Assembly: GCF_000373925.1 (NCBI RefSeq)
Contig: NZ_KB892759.1
Span: 1,577 to 65,576 of the forward strand
DNA: 64,000 bases
DNA from: Actinopolymorpha alba DSM 45243
GTDB lineage: Bacteria > Actinomycetota > Actinomycetes > Propionibacteriales > Actinopolymorphaceae
Direction of reading: 5' to 3'
Part shown: positions 32,535 to 59,882 of the stretch, in pieces
Numbering within the stretch: position 1 is the first letter of the stretch
How the letters are laid out: each line of letters starts with the position of its first letter
Notes under the pieces: model-generated
Seen by the model: the letters and a program-made list of their open reading frames with translations, nothing else
The model's database searches: none
What the model was told of the DNA's origin: nothing
Position numbers and translations under genes: made by a program

Positions 32535-32540
32535 CCGGTC

Positions 32541-42699: not shown

Positions 42700-44208
42700 A
42701 TGGCGGTCATGACCGTGCAGGACAACCAGGCCAGGACCGAAGGGCGACGCTTCCGGCGAGCGGTGACGTTGCTCCTCATGACGCTCTTCGCACCGGGCTC
42801 CGCACAGATCGTCGCCGGCAACCGCCAGGTCGGGCGGGTGGCGGTGCGGATCGCGCTTGGGGTCCTCGGCGTCGCGGCGGTCCTGGCCCTGGTCGGCCTG
42901 GTGTCGTCCCGAGCTCTGGTCTCGCTCCTCGCGAACGCCACGTTCCTGCGGGTCATCCAGATCGCGCTCGTCCTCCTGGCGCTCGGCTGGCTCGGATTGT
43001 TCATCGACGCCTGGCGGCTCGGTGTCCCGCTGGCGCTCAGGCAGAAGCAGCGCCTCACGTCGACCGTCATCGCGCTCGTTCTCTCGGTCGTCGCTGTGAG
43101 CCTCGTCCTCACCTCGTCGCACTACGTGGCGGTGGCGCGTGAGTCGATCTCGGGAATCTTCGCGGGCACCAAGGTGCAGGATCCGTACGCGGGCCGCTAC
43201 AACATCCTTCTTCTCGGAGCCGACGCCGGCCCTGACCGGGTGGGGCTGCGTCCGGACAGCATCACGCTCGTGTCGATCGACGAGCAGACCGGGCGTGCGG
43301 CGATGTTCAGCTTCCCGAGGAACCTCCAGCGGGTGCCGTTCCCGGAGGGGACGGTCATGCGCCAGCAGTTCCCGCGCGGCTTCGACTGTGGCGACGAGTG
43401 CCTGCTCAACGCCGTCTACACCTGGGCGACCGACCACAAGGACCTGTTCCCCGGTGTTGCCGACCCCGGCATCGAGGCCACCAAGGACGCCATCCGTGGG
43501 GTCACCGGACTCGACGTCAACTACTACGCGCTCATCGACATGCGCGGCTTCCAGCAGCTGATCAACGCGGTCGGCGGCGTCACGATCGACGTCAAGCAGG
43601 ACGTGCCGATCGGCGGCAAGGGCGGAGTGATCCGGGGCACCATCCAGGAGGGACGCCAGCGGCTCGACGGCTACCACGCGCTGTGGTACGCCCGCTCACG
43701 GACCGGAACCAGCGACTACGATCGGATGGCCCGGCAGCGCTGCGTGATGGCCGCGATGCTCCATCAGCTGGACCCGGCCAACGTCCTGATGAAGTTCCGC
43801 GCGATCGCCCAGGCCGGCCAGCAGGTCGTCTCGACCGACATCCCGGCGAGCGAACTCGACACGTTCGTCGACCTCGCCCTCAAGGCCAAGCAGGACAAGA
43901 TCAGCTCCGTCCAGTTCGTACCACCGTTGATCAAGACGGCGCGCCCGGACTTCCCGTTGATCAGAACGAAGGTCCGCGAGGCCATTGACGCGTCGAAGCC
44001 GACTCCAACACCGGCCGGAACCTCCCAGGCCGGAGGGGCCAAGCCCGTGGGGGAGGCTGGGGCGTCCGTCGCGAGCTCGAACGACGGGGCGGAACGCAAA
44101 CAGTCCTCGGGCACGTCCGCGACTCCCGCGTCGGGTGGCTCGAGCACCTCCTCGACCCCCGCCCCCGAAGGTGTCACCAGCCTCAACGCCGTGTGCGCCG
44201 CCGCCTAA
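42700..44208 (+). CDS. LCP family protein with polytopic N-terminus
   Basis: A 502-aa protein. Unlike the neighbour, it begins with four or so hydrophobic segments (about residues 20-35, 45-72, 82-105, 120-142) before the LCP domain at about 160-420. The LCP motifs are degenerate but recognisable: NILLLGADAGPDRVGLRPDSITL, FSFPRNLQRVPFPEG, AIRGVTGLDVNYYALIDMRGFQQLI and ALWYARSRTGTSDYDRMARQRCVMAAML (in parts), with Arg residues of the polyprenyl-phosphate site. The C-terminal 70 residues are Ser/Thr/Ala/Pro-rich. It is divergent from the other LCP gene and near the polymer operon. Start: ATG at MAVMTV, a second ATG three codons in. Confidence 0.88.
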   Translation: MAVMTVQDNQARTEGRRFRRAVTLLLMTLFAPGSAQIVAGNRQVGRVAVRIALGVLGVAAVLALVGLVSSRALVSLLANATFLRVIQIALVLLALGWLGLFIDAWRLGVPLALRQKQRLTSTVIALVLSVVAVSLVLTSSHYVAVARESISGIFAGTKVQDPYAGRYNILLLGADAGPDRVGLRPDSITLVSIDEQTGRAAMFSFPRNLQRVPFPEGTVMRQQFPRGFDCGDECLLNAVYTWATDHKDLFPGVADPGIEATKDAIRGVTGLDVNYYALIDMRGFQQLINAVGGVTIDVKQDVPIGGKGGVIRGTIQEGRQRLDGYHALWYARSRTGTSDYDRMARQRCVMAAMLHQLDPANVLMKFRAIAQAGQQVVSTDIPASELDTFVDLALKAKQDKISSVQFVPPLIKTARPDFPLIRTKVREAIDASKPTPTPAGTSQAGGAKPVGEAGASVASSNDGAERKQSSGTSATPASGGSSTSSTPAPEGVTSLNAVCAAA

Positions 44209-44386: not shown

Positions 44387-45403
44387 ATGACCGACAGACC
44401 CGACACACCAGCCGTGCGGTGGCCCCCGGTCTCGGTCGTCATGCCGGTCCTCAACGAGGAACGCCACCTGCGCGACGCCGTCACGCAGGTCCTCGACCAG
44501 GACTACCCCGGCCTGCTCGAGATCGTCGTCGCCATCGCTCCCTGCAAGGACCGCACCGAGGAGATCGCCCGCGAGATCGTCGCGACTGACTCCCGGGTAC
44601 GCCTGATCGCCAACCCCGCCGGCCTCACGCCAAGTGGCCTGAACGCCGCGATCAAGGAGGCGGCGTACGACGTGATCGTGCGTGTCGACGGGCACGGCAT
44701 CCTCTCGCCCGGCTACATCCGCCGTGCGGTAGAGGTGCTTCTCGAGACCGGCGCCGACAACGTGGGTGGCGTGATGGCGGCCGAAGGCGAGTCGGCGTTC
44801 GAGGAGGCCGCGGCCCGGGCCTACACCAGCCCGCTCGGACTCGGCGGCGGCCGCTTCCACGTGGGCGGGCAGGCCGGACCGGTCGATTCGGTCTACCTCG
44901 GGGTGTTCCGGCGCGAGACGCTCGACCGGCTCGGTGGCTTCGACGAGACGTTCGAGCGCGCCCAGGACTGGGAGCTCAACTACCGCATCCGGCAGGCGGG
45001 CGGCACTGTGTGGTTCACGCCCGACCTGCGCGTGACCTACCGGCCGAGGTCGAGTCTCGCCACGCTGGTCCGGCAGTTCTACCTGACCGGGAAGTGGCGG
45101 CGGGCGATCGGACGTCTCCACCCGGGCACGTTCAACGTCCGTTATCTCGCCCCGCCGACCGCGGTGGTCGGGTGTGCGGCTGGCCTACTCCTCGGGCTTG
45201 CTGGACTCGCGGCGGGCGTACCTTTGCTGCTGGTCGGGTTCGTCGTCCCGGCGGTCTACGTGCTCGGCGTGGTGGCGGGCTCGCTGGTCTTCGGGCGTGA
45301 CATGTCGTGGCGGGCGAAGGCCTGGCTGCCCGTGGTGGTGGCGACCATGCACATGTCGTGGGGACTGGGCTTCCTGCTGAGCCCGCGGACCCTGGCCGGC
45401 TGA
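44387..45403 (+). CDS. glycosyltransferase family 2
   Basis: A 338-aa GT2 enzyme. The nucleotide-sugar site is seen in VSVVMPVLNEERHLRDAVTQVL, the DxD-like motif in VIVRVDGHGIL and the acceptor-side acidic motif in RAQDWELNYRIRQAGG. Three hydrophobic segments near the C-terminus (about 250-335) anchor it to the membrane, as in enzymes that act on lipid-linked glycans. GGAG before the ATG. It ends 12 nt from the convergent exporter gene and belongs to the envelope-polymer block. Sugar specificity unknown. Confidence 0.92.
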   Translation: MTDRPDTPAVRWPPVSVVMPVLNEERHLRDAVTQVLDQDYPGLLEIVVAIAPCKDRTEEIAREIVATDSRVRLIANPAGLTPSGLNAAIKEAAYDVIVRVDGHGILSPGYIRRAVEVLLETGADNVGGVMAAEGESAFEEAAARAYTSPLGLGGGRFHVGGQAGPVDSVYLGVFRRETLDRLGGFDETFERAQDWELNYRIRQAGGTVWFTPDLRVTYRPRSSLATLVRQFYLTGKWRRAIGRLHPGTFNVRYLAPPTAVVGCAAGLLLGLAGLAAGVPLLLVGFVVPAVYVLGVVAGSLVFGRDMSWRAKAWLPVVVATMHMSWGLGFLLSPRTLAG

Positions 45404-45415
45404 GCGGTTCGGCGC

Positions 45416-46282
45416 TCAGCCGCGGCCGTACTTCTCCTCGGCCGCCCAGAAGTACCAGAAGCCGATGCAGAACGCGACGACCGCCCAGCTGATGGCGAGG
45501 ATCCAGGCGTGGTTGGGGGCGTCGTGGCGGTTGATGAACGCGTCGCGGACGAGCTCGATGTAGACCGTCGCGGGATTGGCCATCATCAGATCCTGCAGGG
45601 TGCTGTTGTGCACGCGTTGCGGGATCGAGAAGAAGACTCCGGACAGATAGAGCCAGGTGCGGGTGAGGAACGGCAGGAGCTGGCTGATGTCGGGGATCCG
45701 CGACCCGACTCTGGCGATGGCGAGGCTCAGACCGGTGTTGAAGATCGTCTGAAGCGCGATCGCGGGGATGATGGTCAGCCAGGCCCAGGTGATGGGCTCT
45801 CCGGTGAGCAGGACAATCACGCAGAGCACCGCGAGCGAGACGAGCATCTGCTGCAGCTCGACGATCGTGGAGGAGAACGGCAGCGCGGCGCGCGGGAAGT
45901 GCAGCGCCCTGATCAGCGAGAGGTTTCCCGAGATCGCCCGCGCTCCTGAGGTCACCGAGCGTTGGGTGAACGTGAAGATGAAGACGCCGGTGACGAGGAA
46001 CGCGATGAAGTTGTCCATCCGGCCGGCGGAATTGAAGAGGATGCCGAAGATCAGGTAGTAGACGCCGGCGTTCATCAGTGGCGTCAGCAGCTGCCACAAC
46101 TGCCCCAGCCGGGCGCCGGAGTACTGCGTCGCGGTCCGTGAGGTCGCGAACGACGCGATGAAGTGGCGGCGCTGCCAGAGTTGGCTGACGTAGGTGAGGA
46201 ACGCTGGACGTGCCGAACTCGGTGCGAGACCGTGGTGTGCCGCCAGCTCAGCCGGGGAGGCGGTGGAGGTTGTTGTGCTCAC
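45416..46282 (-). CDS. ABC-2 type polysaccharide export permease (first copy)
   Basis: A 288-aa six-helix permease of the Wzm/TagG type that exports finished polymer chains. Shared features with its paralogue at 47159: ARLGQLWQLLTPLMNAGVYYLIFGILFNS, TQRSVTSGARAISGNLSLIRALHFPRAALP and DLMMANPATVYIELVRDAFI (in parts). GTG start after GGGTG. It is the last gene of the minus-strand operon, separated from the ATPase by 113 nt. The two permeases differ mainly in their first 40 residues and are otherwise nearly interchangeable, so they may form a heterodimer or be a recent duplication. Confidence 0.92.
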   Translation of the reverse strand: MSTTTSTASPAELAAHHGLAPSSARPAFLTYVSQLWQRRHFIASFATSRTATQYSGARLGQLWQLLTPLMNAGVYYLIFGILFNSAGRMDNFIAFLVTGVFIFTFTQRSVTSGARAISGNLSLIRALHFPRAALPFSSTIVELQQMLVSLAVLCVIVLLTGEPITWAWLTIIPAIALQTIFNTGLSLAIARVGSRIPDISQLLPFLTRTWLYLSGVFFSIPQRVHNSTLQDLMMANPATVYIELVRDAFINRHDAPNHAWILAISWAVVAFCIGFWYFWAAEEKYGRG

Positions 46283-46395
46283 CGAGCACCCCTGCGGTAC
46301 GCCGAACTCATGGCGACGAGACTACGACATACGCCCCCGCCTACCCCGCTTTGAGAAGGACTTGGGGCGATCGTTACCGGCTGTGGTGCGGTTGG

Positions 46396-47166
46396 TCAGC
46401 GGGTCGCGCTGCTGTAGGCGTTGACGACCGTCTCGGCGTCGCCGTCCATCTTGATCGAGCCCTGGTCGAGCCAGATCGCGCGGGTGCAGGTCTTGGTCAC
46501 GACGTCGAGGCTGTGGCTGACGAGGAAGACGGTGCCGGCTTCGTCACGGAGTTCGCGGATGCGTTCTTCGCTACGTTTGCGGAAATCCGCGTCGCCGGTG
46601 GCGAGCGCCTCGTCGATGAGCAGGACGTCGTGGGACTTCACCGCGGCGATCGCGAACCGGAGCCGCTGCTGCATGCCGGAGGAGTACGTGCGCATCGGGA
46701 GGTCGATGAACTCGCCGAGGCCGGAGAACTCCACGATGTCGTCGTAGCGCTCCTTGGCCTGCGCGGGGGTGAGGCCCATGGCGAGGCAGCCGAGGATGAT
46801 GTTGCGTTCGCCGGTGAGGTCGCTCATCAGGGCGGCGTTGACGCCGAGCAAGGTGGGCTGGCCGTCGGTGAAGACGGCGCCCCTGGTGGGTGGAAGGAGA
46901 CCGGCGATGGCGCGGAGCAGCGTGCTCTTGCCGGAGCCGTTGCGCCCGATCAGCCCGATCGACTCGCCCCGGTGCGAGGTGAAGGAGACGCCGCGGACGG
47001 CGTGCACCTCGCGGAGCGCCGGCGACTTCTGCCGCTTGAGGATGCGCTTGAACGCCGCCGGGGCGTTGCCCTTGCCGACGGTGGCGCCGTAGACGCGGTA
47101 GACGATGTGCAGGTCGTCCACGATGACCGTGGGCACCTGGCCGTTGGTGTGCTGGATGTCAGCCAC
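46396..47166 (-). CDS. ABC transporter ATP-binding protein for polysaccharide export
   Basis: A 256-aa Wzt/TagH-type ATPase. Walker A GRNGSGKSTLLRAIAGL, signature YSSGMQQRLRFAIAAV, and Walker B DVLLIDEALATGD are complete; the N-terminal VHAVRGVSFTSHRGESIGLIG fits the family. It lacks a C-terminal carbohydrate-recognition domain, so it should export without reading a terminal modification. Its start overlaps the second permease by 8 nt. It sits between two near-identical permease genes. Confidence 0.94.
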   Translation of the reverse strand: MADIQHTNGQVPTVIVDDLHIVYRVYGATVGKGNAPAAFKRILKRQKSPALREVHAVRGVSFTSHRGESIGLIGRNGSGKSTLLRAIAGLLPPTRGAVFTDGQPTLLGVNAALMSDLTGERNIILGCLAMGLTPAQAKERYDDIVEFSGLGEFIDLPMRTYSSGMQQRLRFAIAAVKSHDVLLIDEALATGDADFRKRSEERIRELRDEAGTVFLVSHSLDVVTKTCTRAIWLDQGSIKMDGDAETVVNAYSSATR

Positions 47167-48034
47167 GCCCGTATTTCTCCTCAGCTCCCCAGAAGTACCA
47201 AAAGCCGACGCAGAACGCGACGACCGCCCAGCTGACGGCGAGGATCCAGGCGTGCTGGGGTGCGTCGTGCCGATCGATCAGGGCGTCGCGGACGAGTTCG
47301 ATGTAGACCGTCGCGGGGTTGGCCATCATCAGATCCTGCAGGGGGCCGGCGTGCACGCGTTGCGGGATCGAGAAGAAGACGCCGGACATGTAGAGCCAGG
47401 TGCGGGTGAGGAACGGCAGGAGCTGGCTGACGTCGGGCACGCGCGCGCCGATCCGAGCGATGGCGAGGCTGAGGCCGGTGTTGAAGATCGTCTGCAGGAT
47501 CAGCGCCGGCACCACCAGCAGCCAGGCCCAGGTGATGGGCTCGCCGGTGAGCAGCACGATCACGCCGAGCACCGCGAGGGAGACGAGCATCTGCTGCAGC
47601 TCGACGATCGTGAACGCCAGGGGCAACGCCGCCCGCGGGAAGTGCAGGGCCCTGATCAGCGAGAGGTTGCCCGAGATCGCGCGGGCTCCGGAGGTCACCG
47701 AACGCTGGGTGAACGTGAACAGGAACACCCCGGTGACGAGGAACGCCGTGAAGTTGTCGATGTTACGTCTGGAACTGAAGAGGATGCCGAAGATCAGGTA
47801 ATAGACGCCGGCATTCATCAACGGCGTCAGCACCTGCCAGATCTGGCCGAGCCGGGCGCCGGAATACAGAGTCGCGGTCCGTGAGGTCGCGAACGCGGTG
47901 ATGAAGTGCCGCCGCGCCCACACCTGTCGGAGGTACTGCGGGAGCGGTGGACGGGCCGAGCTTGGCGAGAGACCGTGCTCTGCGGCCAGCTCGGCCCGCG
48001 GAGTCGCGGGCCGGGTAGCGGTGGCCGTGCTCAC
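47159..48034 (-). CDS. ABC-2 type polysaccharide export permease (second copy)
   Basis: A 291-aa permease closely matching the copy at 45416, with the same six-helix Wzm-type layout. The GTG giving VSTATATRPATPRAELAAEHG is preceded by GGGAGG; a longer frame upstream has no ribosome site. It overlaps the ATPase gene by 8 nt and follows the GT2 gene by 106 nt. It is probably the original partner of the ATPase, with the 45416 gene the added copy; alternatively both are needed. Confidence 0.92.
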   Translation of the reverse strand: MSTATATRPATPRAELAAEHGLSPSSARPPLPQYLRQVWARRHFITAFATSRTATLYSGARLGQIWQVLTPLMNAGVYYLIFGILFSSRRNIDNFTAFLVTGVFLFTFTQRSVTSGARAISGNLSLIRALHFPRAALPLAFTIVELQQMLVSLAVLGVIVLLTGEPITWAWLLVVPALILQTIFNTGLSLAIARIGARVPDVSQLLPFLTRTWLYMSGVFFSIPQRVHAGPLQDLMMANPATVYIELVRDALIDRHDAPQHAWILAVSWAVVAFCVGFWYFWGAEEKYGRG

Positions 48035-48140
48035 CGAGCCTCCCTGCACACATCCGGCGGACACATGGCGACGAGCGTACGACATGCCCAGATGCGGCCC
48101 GGGCGACGCCATGGGGACATCGAAGCCATCGGACCGGTTG

Positions 48141-49022
48141 TCATACCAAAGGGGGCCTTCCTAGACGGGTCATACGCCACACGGTGCGCCAGGCGATGGG
48201 CTTACGCCGACCGCAAGGGGTACCCAGGCCCTCGAGCAGCCCGGCCCACCAGGCCGTCAGCCCGGAGAGACTGCGGGTGCGAGCAACCGTCAGCACCACC
48301 CAGGTCAGCAGGTAGACCGCGGCGACCGGCCGCGGCAGGTTCCGCTTCGCCAACCACACCCGATTGCGGGCGTTCAGCCGAAAATACCGTGGATGCCTCG
48401 TAGGGGACGTGGCCGGGTGACAGAGCACACAGTCGGCGTCGTACCAGATCCGCCAGCCGGCATCCATGGCGCGCCAGGCGAGGTCCGTCTCCTCATGGGC
48501 GTAGAAGAACGCGGCGGGGAAGACGCCCACGTCGTCGAAGACATACCTACGGATCGCCGTCGCACCGCCGAGGAACGTCGTGACCTCGGAGGACTCCCTG
48601 GGATCCCCGACCCGCACCCGTGGGACGTGCCGGCGTTGGGTGATCCCACTCGCGGGATCGGTGATCCGGAATGACACGATGCCGAGCCTGGGATCGCTCG
48701 CGAAGAGTTCACGCAGGCGTTGCGCGGTCGTCAGTGAGGGGAGCCACCCGTCGTCATCCAGGAACATGATGATGTCGGCGTGAGCGGCTTCGAGACCGGC
48801 GTTGCGGCCCGCTGGGATGCCGACGTTCTCGGGGAGTTCGAGCACCCGCACGTCGTCTGGCACCTTCGGCGCGGCAACGCCGTTGGCCACCACCACGATC
48901 TCGACCGGATCGCCAGCCTGGTCCTGCACACTGCGGATGGCCCGGGCCAACTCCTCCGGACGGTCGCCCATGGTGAGGAACACACAGGCCAGCCGGAGCT
49001 GGGCTGCATTCGCGGCACTCAA
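48141..49022 (-). CDS. glycosyltransferase family 2 (polymer operon)
   Basis: A 293-aa GT2 enzyme. LACVFLTMGDRPEELARAI opens the nucleotide-binding half, the metal motif is IIMFLDDDGWLPS, and the acceptor motif is FFYAHEETDLAWRAMDAGWRI (in parts). A single membrane-associated segment (AAVYLLTWVVLTVARTRS) lies near the C-terminus. It overlaps the CDP-alcohol phosphotransferase gene by 4 nt (start over stop), so they are translationally coupled. It would add a sugar to the same lipid-linked chain. Confidence 0.92.
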   Translation of the reverse strand: MSAANAAQLRLACVFLTMGDRPEELARAIRSVQDQAGDPVEIVVVANGVAAPKVPDDVRVLELPENVGIPAGRNAGLEAAHADIIMFLDDDGWLPSLTTAQRLRELFASDPRLGIVSFRITDPASGITQRRHVPRVRVGDPRESSEVTTFLGGATAIRRYVFDDVGVFPAAFFYAHEETDLAWRAMDAGWRIWYDADCVLCHPATSPTRHPRYFRLNARNRVWLAKRNLPRPVAAVYLLTWVVLTVARTRSLSGLTAWWAGLLEGLGTPCGRRKPIAWRTVWRMTRLGRPPLV

Positions 49023-49786
49023 GCAAGCCGCCTCGACACGAGAATGCTCACCAGGTGAAGGACGACCTGGACCCCGGCGACGACGGCGACCGCGACGGTC
49101 AGGACGTGCGTGGCCAGGAGATCGCCCCGCACGGTGTCGATGACGGCGGCGACCACGATGATCAGGGAGAGTTCGATCGCCAGGATGATGCGGTAGAACC
49201 GCAGCACCAGGGCGACCCGGCGCAGCCGAGCCAGACCCGCCGCCCGCGGCTCGACCGCCTCTTCGGTGACCGCTGTCAGGCCGTGCCTGGACCGGGCCAC
49301 GTCGACCAGGTCGGTCTCGGCCTTGATCAGGATCGCGCCGAGGGCGGCGGCGAGCCCGAGGACGGCGTACCCCGTCGGCTGGCCACCCGCGGCGCGGAAG
49401 CCGAGGCCCACGAGCAGGGCAGCCTCGCAGAGGTAGTGGCCCACCCGGTCGAGGTAGATGCCGGTCATGCTGGTCCGGCCGGTCCAGCGGGCGACCTCGC
49501 CGTCACTGCAGTCGAGCAGCAGGTAGATCTGGACCAGCAGGGCCGCGAGAATCGCACCGGGCAGACCCGGCCAGAGCAGCGCGAAACCGGCACCGACACC
49601 CGCGACGATCATCAGCCCGGTGAGCTGGTTGGGCGAGAGGCGCAGGACGAGGAAGAGCCGGGTGGCGTACAACGAGATCCGGCGCATGTACATCCGGCCA
49701 GCCCAGTGCTCGCCGCTGCGTCGGTCGAGCAGACCCGGCGGGTGTGCCTTGGCGCGAAGCTCAGCGATCGACGGCAGGGTAGTCAT
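49019..49786 (-). CDS. CDP-alcohol phosphatidyltransferase family protein with variant site
   Basis: A 255-aa polytopic enzyme (about six helices) with the CDP-alcohol phosphotransferase motif D-x2-DG-x2-AR-x8-G-x3-D-x3-D represented as LLDCSDGEVARWTGRTS then MTGIYLDRVGHYLCEA. Seven of the eight key residues are present, but the last Asp is replaced by His, unless the chain uses a neighbour. Enzymes of this family move a phosphoalcohol from CDP-alcohol onto an acceptor. It overlaps both neighbours by 4 nt. A longer frame upstream is not used because it overlaps the dehydrogenase gene. The role is probably to build or prime the polymer. Confidence 0.88.
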   Translation of the reverse strand: MTTLPSIAELRAKAHPPGLLDRRSGEHWAGRMYMRRISLYATRLFLVLRLSPNQLTGLMIVAGVGAGFALLWPGLPGAILAALLVQIYLLLDCSDGEVARWTGRTSMTGIYLDRVGHYLCEAALLVGLGFRAAGGQPTGYAVLGLAAALGAILIKAETDLVDVARSRHGLTAVTEEAVEPRAAGLARLRRVALVLRFYRIILAIELSLIIVVAAVIDTVRGDLLATHVLTVAVAVVAGVQVVLHLVSILVSRRLA

Positions 49787-50910
49787 GTGTCGGGCGTGCT
49801 CTCCTCGGTCTGCGGCCCGGCTGGGCCGTTGCTGTCCTTCGTGCCAGTGGTCGCGTACGCCGCATTCATCCGGTCGGAGAACGCGCGTACGGCCGCCACC
49901 ACCGCGTCCTTGTCGAGGTCGCGGTGCTCCAGGATCGTGAACCGGCCCGGCCGGGTCTCGGGTGCCCGCACGACGGCGGCCGTGAACTCCTCCAGGCTGA
50001 AGCCGAGTGCGGCCGGCGTCACGGGCAGGCCGTGCCGCACCAGGCAGTTCGCGATCAGTGTCCCCCGGGACCGGCTCTCGGGATCGTCCCACAAGGTGGA
50101 GGCGAACGCCGCGCCGAGGCCGACCTGCTCGCCGTGCGCACCAGCGCGCTCGGGGTACAGCAGGTCGATCGCGTGCGAGATCTCGTGGCAGGCGCCGCTG
50201 CACGGGCGGGTCGAACCCGCGACCACCATCGCCAGCCCCGACAACACCAGGCCCTCGGCGAGGACGCGCAGGAAATCGTCGTCGACGAGCGTGCCCGGGT
50301 GGTGGGCCACCGCTTCGGCTGCCGTGCGAGCCAGCGTCACGGCGAGCCCGTCGACGGGTTCGCCGGTGAGGTCGCGGGAAAGCTCCCAATCGGCGATCGC
50401 GGAGAGGTTGGACAGCACCTCACCGATGCCGGCGCGGACGGATCGAGCGGGCGCCTGGCGTACGACGTCGAGGTCGACGATCACCGCGATGGGTGCGGGT
50501 ACGCCGTAAGAACCACGGCCGGCGTCGTTGTCGAGGATGCTGACCGGCGAGCCGATCCCGTCATGGGCGAGGTTCGTCGCGACCGCCACCATGGGCAGGC
50601 CGAGCCGGGCCGCGGCGAACTTCGTCACGTCCAGCACCTTGCCGCCGCCGACACCGACGATCGCGTCATAGGACCGGCCGCGTACCTGCCCGGCGAGCCG
50701 TAGGGCGGCGTCGACCGTGCCACCCTCGACGGTGTAGAAGTCGGCCTCCCGCAGGGTCGGCCTGACACTCTCGGTGAGCTGGCCGCCCGACCGGGGACCC
50801 ACCGCGACGGCGACCCGACCGCCGGCCGAGATGCGCTGGTCGGCGAGGAGGTCGGCCAGGTCGGCGATGGCGCCCCGGCGTATGTCGACCACCACGGGAG
50901 TGGTGATCAT
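49783..50910 (-). CDS. iron-containing alcohol dehydrogenase / sn-glycerol-1-phosphate dehydrogenase-like
   Basis: A 375-aa enzyme of the group III metal-dependent alcohol dehydrogenase/dehydroquinate-synthase fold. The NAD-site GVGGGKVLDVTKFAAARLG and the segment VAVATNLAHDGIGSPVS match the pattern of glycerol-1-phosphate dehydrogenases (AraM/EgsA), and metal ligands lie in NLAHDG (Asp), SGACHEISHAI (His) and AGAHGEQVGLG (His). It should reduce dihydroxyacetone phosphate or a related ketose phosphate to the polyol phosphate. It starts 5 nt after the nucleotidyltransferase stop. The C-terminal 20 residues are low-complexity. Whether the product is sn-glycerol-1-phosphate needs testing. Confidence 0.85.
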   Translation of the reverse strand: MITTPVVVDIRRGAIADLADLLADQRISAGGRVAVAVGPRSGGQLTESVRPTLREADFYTVEGGTVDAALRLAGQVRGRSYDAIVGVGGGKVLDVTKFAAARLGLPMVAVATNLAHDGIGSPVSILDNDAGRGSYGVPAPIAVIVDLDVVRQAPARSVRAGIGEVLSNLSAIADWELSRDLTGEPVDGLAVTLARTAAEAVAHHPGTLVDDDFLRVLAEGLVLSGLAMVVAGSTRPCSGACHEISHAIDLLYPERAGAHGEQVGLGAAFASTLWDDPESRSRGTLIANCLVRHGLPVTPAALGFSLEEFTAAVVRAPETRPGRFTILEHRDLDKDAVVAAVRAFSDRMNAAYATTGTKDSNGPAGPQTEESTPDT

Positions 50911-50915
50911 CCGGG

Positions 50916-51740
50916 CTAGGAGGGGCACGGTGCGTCCCCGCCCGTGGCCGTCGGTGCCGTGCCGGTGCCAGACGCGATCTCCTCGATGACCTTCGCCGCG
51001 CGGGCAAGGTCGTCGTGGTCGTCGATCTCGACCCAGGGGACGTCGCCGATCGGCTGGACGTCGACGCGGACCTGGCCCGCGTCGATCAGCGCCTGGAAGC
51101 CGTCTTCGTAGTAGAGGTGCGGGTCGCGCCGCCACGTCGCCTCGAGCGCGTCCGCGAGGGCCGCGCCGACTCCGGCTGCGAGCCGGCTCACTCCGATGTA
51201 CTCCGCGTACGCCGTCTCGGGGTCCATCAGCTTGGTGATGGAGGTGACGCCGCGCTCGGGCGACCAGGTGACCTTCATCTCCTCCTCGCCGAGCCGCTTG
51301 ACGGCGTCCGCGGCGAGGAGGAGCGAACCCTCGGCATGGGTGCTGCCGAGCAGAGCGTTCTCGACCGACACCGGGTGGACCGTGTCGCCGTTGGCGAGCA
51401 ACACGTCCTCACCGACGAACCGCTCGCGCGCGCACCACAGGGAGTAGCAGTTGTTCCAGGTCAGCGCGCGGTCATTGTGGATCAGGTCGAGCATCACGCC
51501 GTGCCGCCGCTCGAGGGTGGCCTGCCGCGCGCGTACGGCGTCGGCCGCGTAGCCCACCACGATCGCCACGTCGGTCACGCCGACCGTCGCGAAGTTGGCG
51601 AGGATCACGTCGAGCGGGGTGAGCGGCTCGGCCTGGCCGTCGGCCGTCGGGTCGGTCAGCGGGACCAGCGCCTTGGGCAGCGTGTCGGTGTAGGGACGGA
51701 GCCGCCGGCCGGTGCCCGCCGCGAGCACCAGACCGATCAC
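50916..51740 (-). CDS. NTP transferase domain protein (sugar/polyol-phosphate nucleotidyltransferase)
   Basis: A 274-aa GT-A-type nucleotidyltransferase. The signature is at the N-terminus, LAAGTGRRLRPYTDTLPKAL, with DGD-type metal residues in LLANGDTVHPVS and a further acidic motif DPHLYYEDGFQAL. Similar proteins in actinobacteria are annotated as phosphocholine or sugar-phosphate cytidylyltransferases. In this operon it most simply activates the polyol phosphate made by the adjacent dehydrogenase to a CDP derivative for the phosphotransferases. It overlaps the fusion gene upstream by 4 nt. Confidence 0.87.
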   Translation of the reverse strand: MIGLVLAAGTGRRLRPYTDTLPKALVPLTDPTADGQAEPLTPLDVILANFATVGVTDVAIVVGYAADAVRARQATLERRHGVMLDLIHNDRALTWNNCYSLWCARERFVGEDVLLANGDTVHPVSVENALLGSTHAEGSLLLAADAVKRLGEEEMKVTWSPERGVTSITKLMDPETAYAEYIGVSRLAAGVGAALADALEATWRRDPHLYYEDGFQALIDAGQVRVDVQPIGDVPWVEIDDHDDLARAAKVIEEIASGTGTAPTATGGDAPCPS

Positions 51741-53671
51741 CGCGGGCCTCCGCTCGTGGCGGGGACGCCGGCAGCCGAGCCGGTGGCGCCCTCATCGGCC
51801 CGCACCTGCGCCACGGTGGCGGTCACGCTCTCGACGACGAAGATGGCCGCCACCAGGACCGTCACGAGGACGAGGCCCACGTGGAAGACCGTGGCTCCGC
51901 CGAGCGCCAAAAGGGCGATCAGGAGCATCCGGCCGTCGTGGCCGCCGGTGGCGATCACCAGCCAGCGCGGCGGGTAGGTGCCGGTCTGGCCGAGGCGGTA
52001 GACGGTGTCGTAGTGGTGGAAGGCGCAGGCCGCGACATAGCCGAACGCGACTGGAAGGGCGCTCGGCTCGACCAGGGCGGTAAGCGTGATGACCAGGGTG
52101 TATTCGGCGGCGCGGTAAGACGGCGGGAGCACCCAGTCGGCCCAGCCGTTGAGCGGTTGCCGGCTCGCGAACCCCACCAGCAGGACGTACCACAGCACGC
52201 CGACGATCACCCAGGAGGCGCCGACGGCTGGTATCACCGACAGCGAGAACGCGAGGGCGAGCAGCGCGATCAGGGTGGTCAGTGGCGCGGGCAGCGACCG
52301 TCCGGGCAGGGCGTGGTGAACGATCCACCCCACCGGGCCGACGTCGACCAACGCTCCAAGGGAGTTGCCGGCGATCTTCGACCACGGGCGGCGCATCCGG
52401 CGCAGGCTGCGCAGCAACCGGCCGAGGAAGCCGTAGCTCGCGGCGAGCAGGCCCACCGCGAGAAGGGCCACGAACACGATCCGCGGTGTGGTGAACGCGA
52501 CGAGGAGGCAGATGAGCGCCGAGCGTTCGCCCTGCGGGAGGACGGCTGCCCGGCGAAGCCAGACCTTCCACCGCCCGCCACTGAGCCGGGCCTGCACCTG
52601 GCTGGCCAGGGCGGGAGCCTCGTCTGGCCCGGCCGTGACCTCCTCGTAGCCGGAGTGCATCTGGTGACGGACCGTCTGGAACGCCATCGCCGCCGCGGCC
52701 AGCCACCAGATCGAGGGGTCGGTGTGCGCCACGCCGATCGCGAGGCCGGCGTACAACGCGTACTCCTTGACCCGGTCGAAGGTCAGGTCGAGCCGCGCGC
52801 CGAGTCGGCTGTAGCGAACGGTGTAGCGGGCGAGGTCGCCGTCGATGCAGTCGAGGGCGAACGACGCGTGGAAGAGCAGGGCGCCGACGACGTAGCCGGT
52901 GCGGGTGCCGGTCGCGCACAGTGCGGCCGCCGCGAGCGCGACGACCAGCGAGGCCACCGTGATCTGGTTGGGGGTGAAGCCGAGCCGGGCGAACCACCGG
53001 GCCGCGTGGCCTGAGTAGCTGCGGACGAAGTACGTCGTGAAGATCGTGTCCTCGGACTTCACCGCGCTCGTCAGCCGGATCCGCTCCTCGTCGACGGCGG
53101 CGGCGCGGGCCTCGAGTGCCGTCCGTTCCTCAGCTGTGTCGGCGAGGCCGGCGACCAGGGGCGCTGGGTCGATCCGGACGACATTGACGGTCGTGGCCAG
53201 GAGGTCGGCGACCTCGCCGACGTCGACCTGCGCGCCGCCCCGCAGGTGGGTGGGGATCTCCGTCTGTGTGTCGGTCGTCCGCTGGCGCTCGGTGGTGGCC
53301 GCCAGGTGCGTGGTGTCCGCGCGGTCCGCCGACATGATGTTGGAGAGTGCGGTCAGAAGGTGGTGGCGCGCACCCGCGGCGACGGTGAGGGTGCCAGGAC
53401 CGGCGATGGCCGCCGGCCGCCGGTCGCAGATCGCCCGGCGGAGGGCATGGAGGTGACCCACGTAGCGCCGGTCGACCAGCGCGACAGGTCCCGCTGATGT
53501 GGCGGTGAGGACGGCGGCGAGGTCGGCAACCGTGTCGGTGTCCACCACGTCGTAGCCCAGCGCTCGCAACTGCCGGGCCACGGAGAGGTCTCCCGGCTCG
53601 GCAGCCACGATGGGTCCGACGAGGAACGCGGTCGGCAGCGCGATCACCCCTGTCTGGTTGAAACGGCTCAT
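51737..53671 (-). CDS. DUF5941-type CDP-alcohol phosphotransferase fusion protein
   Basis: A 644-aa membrane protein. The first 190 residues form a soluble domain (GDLSVARQLRALGYDVVDTD, AGPVALVDRRYVGHLHALRRAI) resembling a nucleotidyltransferase-like or regulatory module. Next is a CDP-alcohol phosphotransferase domain with the full motif FALDCIDGDLARYTVRYS then RLGARLDLTFDRVKEY. The C-terminal 300 residues contain about six further hydrophobic helices, the DUF5941-like part. Unlike the second enzyme in the operon, it keeps all catalytic Asp residues. It is the first gene of the operon. Start at MSRFNQTGVIALP chosen; an earlier Met is possible. Confidence 0.85.
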   Translation of the reverse strand: MSRFNQTGVIALPTAFLVGPIVAAEPGDLSVARQLRALGYDVVDTDTVADLAAVLTATSAGPVALVDRRYVGHLHALRRAICDRRPAAIAGPGTLTVAAGARHHLLTALSNIMSADRADTTHLAATTERQRTTDTQTEIPTHLRGGAQVDVGEVADLLATTVNVVRIDPAPLVAGLADTAEERTALEARAAAVDEERIRLTSAVKSEDTIFTTYFVRSYSGHAARWFARLGFTPNQITVASLVVALAAAALCATGTRTGYVVGALLFHASFALDCIDGDLARYTVRYSRLGARLDLTFDRVKEYALYAGLAIGVAHTDPSIWWLAAAAMAFQTVRHQMHSGYEEVTAGPDEAPALASQVQARLSGGRWKVWLRRAAVLPQGERSALICLLVAFTTPRIVFVALLAVGLLAASYGFLGRLLRSLRRMRRPWSKIAGNSLGALVDVGPVGWIVHHALPGRSLPAPLTTLIALLALAFSLSVIPAVGASWVIVGVLWYVLLVGFASRQPLNGWADWVLPPSYRAAEYTLVITLTALVEPSALPVAFGYVAACAFHHYDTVYRLGQTGTYPPRWLVIATGGHDGRMLLIALLALGGATVFHVGLVLVTVLVAAIFVVESVTATVAQVRADEGATGSAAGVPATSGGPR

Positions 53672-54250
53672 CTTAGAGCGCTCCGATGACCTGGCGGCCG
53701 GCTGTGCTCGCACCATCATCGGCTGCGTTCACGGGATTGTCGGTTGGGCAGGCACGGTAGGAGCACCGACAGTGATCGTTCACCTGCGCGGCGTTCCTCC
53801 AGTCCGGCCCCCCGACCGTAGCGGTCGCGGCTGCTGAGCGCATCCCGAGCCGGGCAACTCATGTGACCGGTGTCGTCGGCGGGATGGTACGGATCAGGCC
53901 GTAGGTACTCAATCGACACAACCGCGACGTAAGAGGTCGGGCGGGTAGGAAGCGCGGGGTGCGCGAGGTCGGCATAAACCGGACAATTGCTTGGAAAACT
54001 CCTTGCCGGAGTGATCGGCCGGACATGATCAGTTCGTAGTTTGGTCAAAGCGCTGTGTGATCAACTACGGCCGCAATACGGTTCTACCCGTACAAACGTC
54101 GAGGTCGGACGATGCGACGGAGGTCGCAGAAAGTTAATGACCGTCTGTGCCGTCACGTGTACGCAGTGCAGATCGTTAGTCGGTGTATGACCCGAGCCGG
54201 GCGGGTCTAAACCGAGACGACAAGGCCATGAGAGGGAGGTCGATGTCGAT
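53672..54250. other. divergent, AT-richer intergenic region
   Basis: This 579-nt gap separates the polymer operon (minus) from a small plus-strand gene. Its middle part (about 53990-54200) is clearly lower in GC than the rest of the window, with AT-rich words such as CCGGACAATTGCTTGG and AGAAAGTTAATGACC. It should contain the operon promoter and perhaps regulator sites. No tRNA, DnaA-box cluster or convincing reading frame was found. Confidence 0.4.
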
Positions 54251-54673
54251 ATGGCGGCGTCTGTGATGACGTCGGAGATGGTGCCTTCAGCCACTCAAGA
54301 GGCACCGGTGTTCGTTCCCGGCTATGGATGGGTCCGTTGGTCGAGGGCATTACTGGATGCCCAGGCCAGATACCTCCTGCTCCTTCACCGACCGGATCAG
54401 GGATGGGCAAGGCTGCGGCTGGCCGGGATGCGGAGAACGGTTGACGGGCCCCGATGCCTCTACTGCGGGCGCGAATGGACGTGCCCGGAGGTGACGTGGG
54501 CAAGTGCGTGGCTGTCACCGTTCGGACGCATATGGGGACGACGGCACGTGAGGGATCGCGGAGGTAGGCACCGGGCGTCCAGGCACACTCGGGTCGGCGG
54601 CGCGAGTGACCGCCGATCCACTGGCGGCCGGCGGGACTCCAGGAGTCCGGCGGCTTCGGTAGCCGTCGGATAG
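54251..54673 (+). CDS. hypothetical protein with a CLYCGREWTC motif
   Basis: A 140-aa possible protein, not assigned to a family. It contains the segment GPRCLYCGREWTCPEVTWA (three Cys, one pair CxxC), which looks like half of a zinc ribbon, preceded by LLDAQARYLLLLHRPDQGW. Small actinobacterial proteins with this kind of RPD...C..CG..W.CP core are common and uncharacterised. Residues after about 100 are Arg/Gly-rich and may not be real. GGGAGG lies 13-18 nt before this ATG; ATG at 54243 in another frame gives only seven codons. It ends in a 13-nt palindrome (TAGGGAGTCCCTA). Confidence is modest. Confidence 0.45.
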   Translation: MAASVMTSEMVPSATQEAPVFVPGYGWVRWSRALLDAQARYLLLLHRPDQGWARLRLAGMRRTVDGPRCLYCGREWTCPEVTWASAWLSPFGRIWGRRHVRDRGGRHRASRHTRVGGASDRRSTGGRRDSRSPAASVAVG

Positions 54674-54810
54674 GGAGTCCCTACTCCAAGGGGGCGAAGC
54701 AATGTGTGGGCCGGAGTCGGTGGTCGCAGATGAAGGACCACCGGCCCCGGCCCGTTTCGTTGGATTTGTGGGGTCTCGCAGGGGTCGCGGCGTTGCGGGA
54801 CCGGGGGCCG

Positions 54811-57471: not shown

Positions 57472-58199
57472 CGGCTCTCCTCCAGCAGTGACTCCGCGTC
57501 GCTCGCGTATCCGGTGTCGTCAACGGCGCGGCCATCGCGCAGGAACACGATCCGGTCGGCCCAGCCGGCGTGCCGGGCCTCGTGCGTGACGAGCAGGCCG
57601 GCGGCTCCGGCATCGATCCGCGCCCGGAGGAGACGCATCACGGCCTCGCCGGTCTCGGAGTCCAGGGCTCCGGTGGGTTCGTCGGCGAGCACGAGCCGGC
57701 GGTCTCCGACGAGTGCCCGGGCGATCGCGACGCGCTGCTGCTGGCCGCCGGACATGTCGTCGGGGAACCGGCCGGCGAGCTCCTTGACGCCCACCTCCGC
57801 GAGCGCCTGGGTCGCCTCCTTGCGGGCCCGCCGGGAGGGAACGCCATCGAGCTCGAGAGGCAGCGCGACGTTCTCGACCGCGGTGAGCGCCGGGATGAGG
57901 TTGAAGTCCTGGAAGACATAGCCGATCGAACGCCGGCGCAGGCCGGCGACCGCCGCCTTCGAGAGGGTGCCGAGGTCCTGGCCCTCGACCAGGACCTCGC
58001 CGACGGTGGGGGAGTCGAGACCGCCGGCGAGGTGGAGGAGCGTCGACTTCCCAGAACCGGACGGGCCCATCACCGCGACCAGCTCACCTGTGGTGACGGC
58101 GAGGCTGAGTCCGCGCAGTGCGTGGACGGCGGTCTCACCTTGGCCGTGGACGCGGCTGACCTCGCGCAGCTCCAGGACCGGTCCGGCGTGCGGCGTCAT
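57468..58199 (-). CDS. ABC transporter ATP-binding protein (LolD/MacB type)
   Basis: A 243-aa ATPase with Walker A GPSGSGKSTLLHLAGGLD, signature DMSGGQQQRVAIARAL, Walker B LVLADEPTGALDS and the switch His in LLVTHEARHAGWAD. The Y-loop and SPTVGEVLVEG segments match the LolD/MacB/FtsE-like family that pairs with FtsX permeases. It overlaps the permease and the PadR gene by 4 nt each, so all three are one coupled operon. Probably exports a peptide or drug or extracts lipids. Confidence 0.95.
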   Translation of the reverse strand: MTPHAGPVLELREVSRVHGQGETAVHALRGLSLAVTTGELVAVMGPSGSGKSTLLHLAGGLDSPTVGEVLVEGQDLGTLSKAAVAGLRRRSIGYVFQDFNLIPALTAVENVALPLELDGVPSRRARKEATQALAEVGVKELAGRFPDDMSGGQQQRVAIARALVGDRRLVLADEPTGALDSETGEAVMRLLRARIDAGAAGLLVTHEARHAGWADRIVFLRDGRAVDDTGYASDAESLLEESR

Positions 58200-58792
58200 C
58201 GGCGTACCCCCTCGTGGTCAGTGGCGGTGTGGTCGTCGGCCGGACGATTCTCGGCGCTCGGTCGGGCGGGTGCGGTGGAACGCGACGACCGGGCCAGGCG
58301 GGACTCGCAGTGGTCGAGCCAGCGAACCTCGGCCTCGGCCTGGAAGATCATCGAGTCGAGGACGAGCAGCCAGGGGAGGTCGTCCTCGGCGGCGGCCTTC
58401 TTGAGTCGGGTGAGTTCGCGCAGCGTGCGAAGCGTGGAGGTGCGCTGGCCCTGCACGATCGCGGTGACGTCGACGCCGGGCACGGTCGTGGCCAGGGCGA
58501 GCTTGATGGCCAGCTCGTCTCGTGGCCGGGTCTCGCGGGAGATCGGGGTGGCGAACCAGCGGTGGAGTTCGGTGCGGCCTTCGTCGGTGAGGGCGTAGCC
58601 AACCCGGCCGGACTCGTCGGAGCCTTCGCCGCGGACGAGACCGTCGCGCTCGAGCCGGGTCAGGGTCGTGTAGACCTGCCCGACGTTCAGGGGCCAGGTC
58701 GCCCCGGTCGCACGCTCGAACTCCTGCCGGAGTTGGTAGCCGTACTTCGGGCCCTCATCGAGGAGGGCCAGCAGGCCATGACGGATGGACAT
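58196..58792 (-). CDS. PadR family transcriptional regulator
   Basis: A 198-aa PadR-type repressor. The winged helix is at about residues 1-75 (MSIRHGLLALLDEGPKYGYQLRQEF, NVGQVYTTLTRLERDGLVRGEG in parts), followed by a helical dimerisation arm containing RRLDHCES-like helices, and a Ser/Ala/Pro-rich tail. It starts the operon with the ABC transporter genes downstream, and a tandem operator lies immediately upstream. It most likely represses its own operon and is relieved by a substrate of the transporter. Confidence 0.93.
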   Translation of the reverse strand: MSIRHGLLALLDEGPKYGYQLRQEFERATGATWPLNVGQVYTTLTRLERDGLVRGEGSDESGRVGYALTDEGRTELHRWFATPISRETRPRDELAIKLALATTVPGVDVTAIVQGQRTSTLRTLRELTRLKKAAAEDDLPWLLVLDSMIFQAEAEVRWLDHCESRLARSSRSTAPARPSAENRPADDHTATDHEGVRR

Positions 58793-58795
58793 GGC

Positions 58796-58821
58796 TACCG
58801 AGTATGCATACCGGGTATGCC
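58796..58821. promoter_or_regulatory. tandem PadR operator overlapping the PadR operon promoter
   Basis: Two 13-nt units TACCGAGTATGCA and TACCGGGTATGCC sit head to tail, and they contain the perfect palindrome GCATACCGGGTATGC (58806-58820). Read on the minus strand, CATACT at 58806-58801 is a -10 box 8 nt before the PadR ATG, so a repressor bound here blocks the promoter. The galE promoter on the other side may also be affected. Confidence 0.65.
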
Positions 58822-58878
58822 CTGACGCAAGCGACTCGCCCTTCGGCGGACCCCGGCGTCCGTTGGGAGTCGGGCAAC

Positions 58879-58884
58879 TAGGGT
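58879..58884 (+). promoter_or_regulatory. -10 box of leaderless galE promoter
   Basis: TAGGGT lies 8 nt before the galE ATG, without a Shine-Dalgarno. The divergent PadR operator is 58 nt upstream. Confidence 0.5.
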
Positions 58885-58892
58885 GGGCTGCC

Positions 58893-59882
58893 ATGACCTG
58901 GCTCGTCACCGGAGGCGCCGGCTTCATCGGCGCGCACGTCGTCCACGCCCTGCACGAGGCCGGAGAGCAGATCGTCGTCCTCGACGACTTCTCCACCGGC
59001 GTACCCGCTCGCCTCTCAGACCTCGACGACGTGCCCGTCATCCGTGGCGCGGTCCAGTCCACCAGCCTGGTCGCGAAGCTCCTCCGCGAGTACGAAATCA
59101 GTGGTGTCGTCCACGTCGCGGCCAAGAAGCAGCCCGGCGAGTCGGTCGAGAATCCCCTCCTCTACTACCGCGAGAACCTCGGCGGCCTGGAGTCCCTCCT
59201 GCGGGCCATGACCGAGGCCGGGACGGACGCCCTCGTCTTCTCCTCCAGCGCCTCGACGTACGGCAACCAGGACTCCGACGTGTTGACCGAGGACGCGGTG
59301 TGCCGGCCGGAGTCGCCGTACGGCGAGACCAAGCTCGCCGGGGAGTGGCTGATCGCCGACGTGGCCCGGGCGACCGGCCTGCGCTACGTCAACCTGCGCT
59401 ATTTCAACGCCGCCGGCGCGGGCCGGCCCGAACTCGCCGACACGGGTGCGTTCAACCTGATCCCGATGGTGTTCGAACGCCTCACCGCCGGCAAGCCACC
59501 GCTGATCTTCGGCGACGACTACCCGACACCGGACGGCACCACCATCCGCGACTACATCCACGTCGCCGACATCGCCTCCGCGCACGTCGCGGCGGCCCGG
59601 CACCTCGCCAAGGGCGAGGAGGTCCGCCACGTCCTCAACGTGGGCACCGGTCGCGGGTCCTCCACCCGGGAGATCGTGGACACGATCCTGGAGGTGTCCG
59701 GCTACTCCGACCTCACGCCGGAGGTGCTGGGGCGGCGGGCCGGTGACCCGGCCGTCTCGATCGCCTCCGCCGACCGGATCCGGCAGCTCTTCGGGTGGTC
59801 GGCGGCCCATGACATGCGGGCGACGGTGGCCGACGCGTGGGAAGGTTGGCTCTATCACCATCCGGAGGCACGCCGCGCGTGA
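58893..59882 (+). CDS. galE: UDP-glucose 4-epimerase
   Basis: Interconverts UDP-glucose and UDP-galactose with tightly bound NAD. The 329-aa SDR protein has the nucleotide motif LVTGGAGFIGAHVVHAL, the Ser in FSSSASTYGN, the catalytic YxxxK in SPYGETKLAGEW, and the NLRYFNAAGAGRPEL segment of the family; the C-terminal DYIHVADIASAH and RRAGDPAVS blocks also fit. An in-frame ATG further upstream (58785) is rejected because a -10 box lies between. It could serve galactose use or galactan/surface polymer synthesis. Confidence 0.94.
   Translation: MTWLVTGGAGFIGAHVVHALHEAGEQIVVLDDFSTGVPARLSDLDDVPVIRGAVQSTSLVAKLLREYEISGVVHVAAKKQPGESVENPLLYYRENLGGLESLLRAMTEAGTDALVFSSSASTYGNQDSDVLTEDAVCRPESPYGETKLAGEWLIADVARATGLRYVNLRYFNAAGAGRPELADTGAFNLIPMVFERLTAGKPPLIFGDDYPTPDGTTIRDYIHVADIASAHVAAARHLAKGEEVRHVLNVGTGRGSSTREIVDTILEVSGYSDLTPEVLGRRAGDPAVSIASADRIRQLFGWSAAHDMRATVADAWEGWLYHHPEARRA

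Follow-up and report, generated by a model that had tools for sequence, protein, structure and literature searches.

The window analysed here, a 64,000-nt stretch of the Actinopolymorpha alba DSM 45243 genome (contig NZ_KB892759.1, positions 1,577 to 65,576), carries a putative envelope operon of eight intact open reading frames (ORFs). All are encoded on the minus strand and run from 53671 down to 45416 in the order cdpA, ntp, g1pdh, cdpB, gt2, perm1, atp and perm2. Pfam and NCBIfam confirm the families of all eight, as proposed in a first-pass annotation of the window. That annotation had missed two features of cdpA, namely a C-terminal DUF5941 domain and, in the predicted model, an N-terminal domain with a cytidylyltransferase fold. 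The locus is conserved and uncharacterised and, judged from its sequence, is best read as an envelope locus for a glycerol-1-phosphate variant of teichoic-type synthesis. The genes of the operon are as follows.

51737..53671, minus strand: cdpA, predicted cytidylyltransferase-fold N-terminal domain, CDP-alcohol phosphotransferase domain and DUF5941 (PF01066, PF19365)
50916..51740, minus strand: ntp, LicC/PntC/IPCT-like nucleotidyltransferase, predicted CTP:sn-glycerol-1-phosphate cytidylyltransferase
49783..50910, minus strand: g1pdh, EgsA/AraM-like glycerol-1-phosphate dehydrogenase (ATG start; GTG at 50928 possible)
49019..49786, minus strand: cdpB, CDP-alcohol phosphotransferase paralogue without the fourth Asp, which is His here (PF01066)
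48141..49022, minus strand: gt2, family 2 glycosyltransferase, conserved in position (PF00535, 1.1e-15)
47159..48034, minus strand: perm1, ABC-2 permease, TarG/TagG-like (PF01061; longest ORF from 48112)
46396..47166, minus strand: atp, TagH/TarH-like ABC ATPase
45416..46282, minus strand: perm2, second permease, duplicate of perm1

Adjacent genes overlap by 4 nt at three junctions (51737-51740, 49783-49786 and 49019-49022), where four had been counted before, and by 8 nt at one (47159-47166), as reported earlier. Between ntp and g1pdh, 5 nt are left free if g1pdh starts at the ATG at 50910, whereas a start at the GTG at 50928 would make the two overlap by 13 nt. The gap ahead of perm1 is about 106 nt with a GTG start at 48034, which was chosen for the ribosome-site-like stretch upstream of it and for its match to perm2; the longest ORF (48112) would leave 28 nt. 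Ahead of perm2 the gap is 113 nt. The exporter, previously described as duplicated, is doubled in its permease alone and has a single ATPase gene. Since perm1 and perm2 are 82% identical and no second permease was seen in the fetched 19-kb loci of five other genomes of the genus, each of which has one, perm2 looks like a local duplication of a single gene. The approximately 1.1 kb upstream of the operon (53672-54810) contains no convincing gene, and Rfam gives no match at gathering scores in window 30000-64000.

To place the operon in a wider context, 92 loci were chosen by DUF5941 (12) or by g1pdh (80), the latter being the best 80 from a pattern scan that matched at least 594 stretches, at least 512 of them encoding relatives. 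The exact order cdpA-ntp-g1pdh-cdpB-gt2-permease-ATPase, in one direction, is found in 72 of the 92 loci, mostly from Streptomyces. Because this gene order is conserved in related genomes, the operon is a real conserved seven-gene unit and not a chance run of ORFs. Among the matches listed, g1pdh has its nearest named relative in Actinopolymorpha rutila (79% identity); Kribbella, Streptomyces, Actinacidiphila and others rank next. g1pdh is present in all six Actinopolymorpha-genus genomes searched, and the five fetched sister loci contain the seven-gene unit together with a convergent second glycosyltransferase gene (gt2b) and a gene of the LCP family. DUF5941 is found in 13 of 296 genomes sampled across the phylum. 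Presence and absence in individual loci (L numbers) and in the five sister loci refer to the fetched stretches, not to whole genomes, and two loci (L037 and L145) are probably one genome counted twice in the Asp-motif and neighbour (LCP, galE, gt2b) tallies given below. The combination thus belongs to a conserved locus and is not confined to this genome. A Streptomyces version has already been listed by annotation: PMC13118837 (2026) describes clusters near crtB, tagH, tagG and araM that encode a CDP-alcohol transferase, a GT2 and a sugar-phosphate nucleotidyltransferase, and connects these clusters with secondary metabolism and the biosynthesis of teichoic acids.

The closest association within the unit is that of ntp and g1pdh. 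Among 396 genomes across the phylum, a homologue of ntp (E <= 1e-20) is found in 42 and a homologue of g1pdh in 76. In 34 of the 42 ntp-bearing genomes, g1pdh comes immediately after ntp in the same orientation, with less than 1000 nt between them. The adjacency count took the 45 g1pdh matches of at least 150 bits and left out weaker ones; 34 of the 45 have ntp upstream. In distant loci, the pair is kept while the transferases vary. It adjoins a phosphodiesterase-fold gene in two loci (L160, L161), one of which (L161) also encodes a bacterial sugar transferase. Another (L154) combines g1pdh with a CDP-alcohol transferase and a WecG/TagA-family glycosyltransferase, and its ntp lies 3.3 kb away. 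As the pair stays adjacent across the phylum while the transferases vary, the product of the dehydrogenase would be the substrate of the nucleotidyltransferase, and this adjacency is the strongest evidence for such a relation. What had been proposed from the window alone, a dehydrogenase linked with a probable cytidylyltransferase, with CDP-alcohol transferases and with an exporter, here of TagGH type, is supported.

The composition of individual loci varies further. One locus (L152) has cdpB but no cdpA in the fetched 19 kb, another (L148) a canonical transferase but no match to cdpB. In genome G204 the parts are split between two loci (L032 and L148): ntp-g1pdh and one transferase are in one, and the other combines a DUF5941 transferase with an ABC ATPase and a permease of weak similarity. 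In Kribbella steppae (L040:11109-11807), a tyrosine-phosphatase-family gene follows the ntp-g1pdh pair and precedes the exporter. No CDP-glycerol polymerase was found beside the pair among nine ORFs of L040 and of L038, a locus labelled Streptomyces sp. SID13031.

The best NCBIfam model for g1pdh is NF002022 (glycerol-1-phosphate dehydrogenase, G1PDH) with 229.7 bits, versus 66.3 bits for glycerol dehydrogenase. A profile search of the PDB ranks 3ce9 first (6.7e-60), followed by 4rgq/4rfl (1.6e-57), 5fb3 and 9h4x, and a search with the single protein ranks the G1PDH 4rgq first. D117, H242 and H259, which we take to be the metal ligands, are invariant in eight aligned sequences and align with solved G1PDH chains; the active-site stretches of archaeal G1PDH align as well. 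As NF002022 is the best of seven families listed, yet its curated cut-off is not reached, g1pdh is regarded as an EgsA/AraM homologue that probably works as a glycerol-1-phosphate (G1P) dehydrogenase, and not as a filed member of the family.

For ntp, the PDB was searched with a profile of ten ntp sequences. The top three of 35 matches are LicC (1jyk, 4.3e-21), PntC-AEPT (6pd1, 7.5e-14) and 4jd0 (2.5e-13), all of them CTP enzymes; LicC is a phosphocholine cytidylyltransferase and 4jd0 the inositol-1-phosphate CTP transferase of T. maritima. Use of CTP by ntp is likely because these three best solved matches are CTP enzymes, although sugar nucleotidyltransferases lead in NCBIfam. ntp stays far below the cut-off of each of the ten NCBIfam families listed.

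The usual source of CDP-glycerol is TagD. It has no match in the six genomes of the genus, while 12 of 14 genomes give a match in the control, two of them above the cut-off, and the canonical CDP-glycerol-3-phosphate route is rejected on this ground. TagF-family matches (PF04464) are weak and occur in five of the six genomes; that of the window genome lies on another contig. An archaeal-type lipid is likewise rejected for the window genome, which is 95.86% complete and has no PcrB match (control matched in 7 of 14, over the cut-off in five), so that a Bacillus-type use of G1P in ether lipids is probably unavailable. It is therefore very improbable that the locus makes an archaeal-type ether lipid or a canonical wall teichoic acid by known routes, even though the AraM of Bacillus feeds an ether lipid (PMC13400652) and the Streptomyces genes are annotated as tagG, tagH and araM (PMC13118837). 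A phosphonate polymer was considered as well and rejected: phosphoenolpyruvate mutase has matches below the cut-off in all six genus genomes and reaches it in none (control 6 of 14, none over).

In solved CDP-alcohol phosphotransferases, the first three Asp residues of the four-Asp motif bind CDP and metal and the fourth is the catalytic base. cdpA keeps all four in 92 of 93 homologues, the exception being a truncated match (L104). In cdpB, the first three are kept in all 98 homologues from 111 loci, and the fourth position is occupied by Ala (68 homologues) or His (30). The motifs of the 49019 gene had been described as intact, which does not hold for its fourth Asp. Since this residue is lost in several families of the phylum, the loss is not decay in one genome; cdpB may use an acceptor that needs no base, rely on another base, or support cdpA. 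A phosphatidylinositol mannoside (PIM) pathway is rejected, as both cdpA (56.1 bits) and cdpB (25.8 bits) miss the PIPS cut-off of 170 bits. With no TagD match in the six genomes either, the part of the earlier refutation that concerned a known teichoic acid or PIM pathway is not seen at the level of these genes.

Structures of both transferases were predicted with AlphaFold2 (cdpA: mean pLDDT 79.5, pTM 0.70, 25 sequences; cdpB: mean pLDDT 80.8). The N-terminal domain of the cdpA model (residues ~10-193) aligns with IspD, PntC and related folds (VIA-align), and inspection by eye did not reveal the usual nucleotide-binding motif in it. For the membrane part, 300-305 residues can be aligned with choline phosphotransferases, up to residue 380 of 8ero/9uet (Z 18.4-19.7, rmsd 3.5-3.9, 12-14% identity). 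In cdpB, DUF5941 is missing, and the alignments of its model with these chains span only 197-199 residues, ending at residues 246-288 (Z 9.5-11.9); its match to AF2299 (Z 18.0, 210-211 residues, rmsd 3.3-3.4) reflects the family fold. A match of DUF5941 to the C-terminal helices of choline phosphotransferase would best account for this difference in aligned length.

Choline phosphotransferases use a soluble CDP-alcohol donor and a lipid acceptor, and the chains resembling cdpA include 8ul9, which was solved with diacylglycerol. CDP-alcohol transferases moreover usually form one bond, to our knowledge. The locus might therefore make, instead of a polymer, a small phosphoglycolipid or modified phospholipid that the ABC transporter moves; an example is phosphatidylglycerol, with CDP-glycerol and diacylglycerol joined in a Kennedy-type route. 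This is considered unlikely in view of the exporter and of the polymer-type neighbours: within the genus these are LCP, gt2 and gt2b, and distant loci have TagA-family or sugar-phosphate transferases. The ATPase is closest to TagH (7dd0, 8.6e-55) and TarH (6jbh, 8.1e-54), which rank first and second in the PDB profile search. For the permease, 9cfp, an entry that also contains a TagH chain, ranks first (5.8e-11) and TarG (6jbh_C, 2.1e-10) third. The exporter is TagGH/TarGH-like by sequence; the ATPase stays below the two NCBIfam cut-offs for TagH (185.4 vs 538 and 175.9 vs 320 bits). In S. roseosporus, the TagR/TagGH system has tagG and tagH beside a TetR-family regulator gene (PMC10269677) and, because of this regulator, is probably another locus.

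Taken together, the operon is proposed to build and export an envelope glycopolymer or glycolipid bearing phosphoglycerol derived from sn-glycerol-1-phosphate. This reading is moderately likely, with a probability of roughly 0.6. Gene content, families, conservation, linkage and motif states are taken from the sequence and folds are predicted; from these, we infer all substrates, reactions and the product. In the proposed pathway, g1pdh would reduce dihydroxyacetone phosphate to sn-glycerol-1-phosphate, which ntp would couple with CTP to CDP-glycerol, the enantiomer of the TagD product. cdpA would then move phosphoglycerol from the soluble CDP donor to a membrane lipid or lipid-linked glycan. 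cdpB, with the CDP/metal-binding Asp residues kept and the base lost, may perform a second transfer to a base-independent acceptor or act as a partner subunit. gt2 would add a sugar, perhaps galactose where a divergent galE exists, and the product would be exported by the TagGH-like ABC transporter. An LCP enzyme may finally attach the product to the cell wall in Actinopolymorpha and Kribbella. Three neighbouring genes could be relevant to these last steps.

44387..45403, plus strand: gt2b, convergent family 2 glycosyltransferase, likely associated (PF13641/PF00535)
42700..44208, plus strand: LCP-family glycopolymer transferase, likely associated (PF03816, 4.9e-26)
58785..59882, plus strand: galE-like UDP-glucose 4-epimerase, divergent neighbour, possible sugar supply (TIGR01179)

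gt2b adjoins the operon in the window, in the five other genus loci and in three further loci (L030, L037, L040). The LCP gene lies beside it in the window, the five genus loci and the Kribbella locus L040. An LCP gene and a second GT2 next to the operon had been recognised before; one LCP gene, not several, is found among the ORFs tested. The galE-like gene scores 314.9 bits against TIGR01179 (cut-off 262.3). A divergent galE is located less than 3 kb from cdpA in 37 of the 95 cdpA loci, 90 of which have at least 2.5 kb available upstream. In the window, cdpA and galE are separated by genes for an FtsX permease, an ABC ATPase and a PadR-type regulator (54811-59125). This set looks like a lineage-specific insertion, because galE is only ~1.0-1.1 kb from cdpA in five loci of the Actinopolymorpha group. 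Elsewhere in the window (31344-34193), a TelA-family gene adjoins one that encodes solute-binding and von Willebrand factor domains. In Streptomyces purpureus (L042), a cation-efflux gene (zitB family match) is encoded upstream of the operon, and squalene/phytoene synthase and squalene-hopene cyclase genes follow downstream in the same direction (L042:14868-21001). Gene clusters with these two families occur in 78 and 62 of 93 loci, respectively, by crude gene calling. Neither family was found among the window ORFs tested and none is labelled in Embleya (L048), and these genes are treated as neighbourhood and not as a link with hopanoids.

Upstream regions of cdpA were scanned for PHO-box-like direct repeats with GTTCACC, which we take to be the consensus. 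A score of at least 10 is reached in 36 of 88 regions, compared with 13 of 600 stretches drawn at random from these loci. The named regions among the 25 best-scoring ones belong to Streptomyces or Actinacidiphila. PhoP control is rejected for the window, where no PHO box was found, and phosphate control is claimed for other loci only; it would suit a phosphate-rich polymer, but the PHO box could serve the divergent gene instead. In S. coelicolor, the hopanoid genes presumably comprise SCO6759 onward. zitB is SCO6751 (PMC5472717), and the S. coelicolor gene numbers follow from the position of the locus between zitB and the hopanoid genes, which would place SCO6753 within it. SCO6753 is reported to be a predicted PhoP target that has a PHO box and is altered in a phoP mutant (PMC4173021, which gives GTTCA as the consensus).

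A number of observations weigh against the proposed phosphoglycerol pathway. The loci are kin to each other and the counts are not independent. Direct ntp/g1pdh adjacency is missing in eight of the 42 ntp-bearing genomes. That the transferases need not accompany the pair is seen in the Kribbella locus L040, which encodes ntp, g1pdh, permease and ATPase but gives no match to cdpA or cdpB (E <= 1e-15) within the 21 kb fetched. LCP has close matches in 7 of 108 loci, all from the Actinopolymorpha group or Kribbella, and 53 of the 90 loci with sufficient upstream sequence have no galE there. The window, one of the 88 regions scanned, has no PHO box, with a best score of 8.8 at a background mean of 8.5. 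The PDB list for ntp also contains UTP, dTTP and GTP enzymes, ranking below the CTP enzymes, and its best NCBIfam models are sugar nucleotidyltransferases (RmlA type, 44.0 bits; AglF, 42.8; GlmU type, 42.1). For cdpA, Foldseek places the archaeal structures IPCT-DIPPS, which ranks first, and AF2299 above the choline phosphotransferases (2.1e-6 vs 0.037 or worse). Helical matches can mislead, and DUF5941 is seen only within the full cdpA model and is barely covered by alignment rows. The CDP-alcohol phosphotransferases known to us make single transfers, which does not account for chain growth. g1pdh remains below the curated cut-off of 413 bits of NF002022, an archaeal G1PDH model, and its top PDB profile match, 3ce9, was deposited as a glycerol dehydrogenase. 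Glycerol is suggested by the family, and another ketose phosphate is possible.

The same machinery could accordingly act on a different ketose phosphate. The alcohol activated would then be a tetritol, a pentitol or an inositol phosphate, of the kind present in polymers of mannitol or ribitol type or in inositol phosphodiesters. Besides the score of g1pdh under its model cut-off, the matches of ntp and both transferases to IPCT-DIPPS and its first rank in the cdpA Foldseek list point in this direction. These matches reach only 24.3-43.8 bits with the NCBIfam model, however, at a cut-off of 580, and g1pdh is far nearer to the G1PDH model than to the glycerol dehydrogenase models and aligns with the archaeal active-site stretches. 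Another polyol is thus judged improbable, and glycerol remains the preferred reading.

A more specific and bold version of the phosphoglycerol pathway concerns lipoteichoic acid (LTA). The wall and lipoteichoic acids of B. subtilis have mirror-image units, sn-3 via CDP-glycerol in the former and sn-1 via phosphatidylglycerol in the latter (PMC7086022). With a CDP-glycerol derived from sn-glycerol-1-phosphate, LTA-type stereochemistry would be obtained from a soluble donor. The locus might thus represent an LtaS-independent, LTA-type pathway of actinobacteria, in which a chain of sn-glycerol-1-phosphate is built on the cytoplasmic side from mirror-image CDP-glycerol by choline-phosphotransferase-type CDP-alcohol phosphotransferases and exported by the TagGH-like transporter. 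cdpB would be a base-less starter acting on an ionised acceptor such as polyprenyl phosphate, and DUF5941 the bacterial counterpart of the C-terminal helices of CPT1. This version is speculative and, on balance, doubtful. A polyglycerolphosphate LTA has been characterised in S. hygroscopicus, and the same paper finds LtaS without clear orthologues in the actinobacterial genomes sequenced by then (PMC3196553); no LtaS search was made here.

In open-licence papers, no product or mechanism for the locus was found, nor any mention of DUF5941 or of a CDP-alcohol transferase, a cytidylyltransferase and a G1PDH combined. CDP-glycerol together with G1PDH or a G1P cytidylyltransferase was found in that literature in a capsule paper only. 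The earlier statement that this combination has no characterised product therefore stands within these papers, while the locus itself had already been listed by annotation (PMC13118837). Bacterial G1P dehydrogenase has been discussed mainly for the ether lipids of Bacillus (PMC8262930, PMC13400652). An operon of a dehydrogenase and a probable cytidylyltransferase would give glycerol phosphate of archaeal handedness a purpose in bacteria and, if true, could explain LTA-like material in actinobacteria without the usual enzyme. The locus offers Streptomyces genes that are open to deletion. For DUF5941, whose function is not known, it points to a possible structural interpretation, and cdpB defines a conserved subfamily of CDP-alcohol phosphotransferases in which the usual catalytic base is missing.

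The proposed pathway can be compared with several known systems. With the wall teichoic acid pathway (TagD/TagB/TagF/TagGH) it shares the idea of CDP-activated glycerol phosphate, cytoplasmic assembly and a TagGH-like exporter. It differs in that a G1PDH-like enzyme and a LicC-like nucleotidyltransferase replace TagD, CDP-alcohol phosphotransferases replace TagB and TagF, and the predicted stereochemistry of glycerol is opposite. The predicted unit equals the sn-glycerol-1-phosphate unit of B. subtilis LTA (PMC7086022); in contrast to the LtaS route, the operon has no LtaS-type polymerase among its genes and is predicted to use a soluble CDP donor and ABC export. In IPCT-DIPPS, inositol-1-phosphate cytidylyltransferase and CDP-alcohol phosphotransferase are fused, with the cytidylyltransferase-fold domain first, as in cdpA. 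In cdpA, however, the N-terminal domain shows no nucleotide-binding motif by eye and the likely active cytidylyltransferase is a separate gene, with DUF5941, g1pdh and the exporter added. cdpA shares its predicted fold with the eukaryotic choline phosphotransferases CPT1/CEPT1 over the transferase core and the extra C-terminal helices, but is bacterial, has a soluble N-terminal domain and is only 12-14% identical. Finally, g1pdh has the sequence family and metal-ligand positions of AraM/EgsA, whereas the partner of the latter is an ether-lipid synthase and g1pdh is linked to a probable cytidylyltransferase instead.

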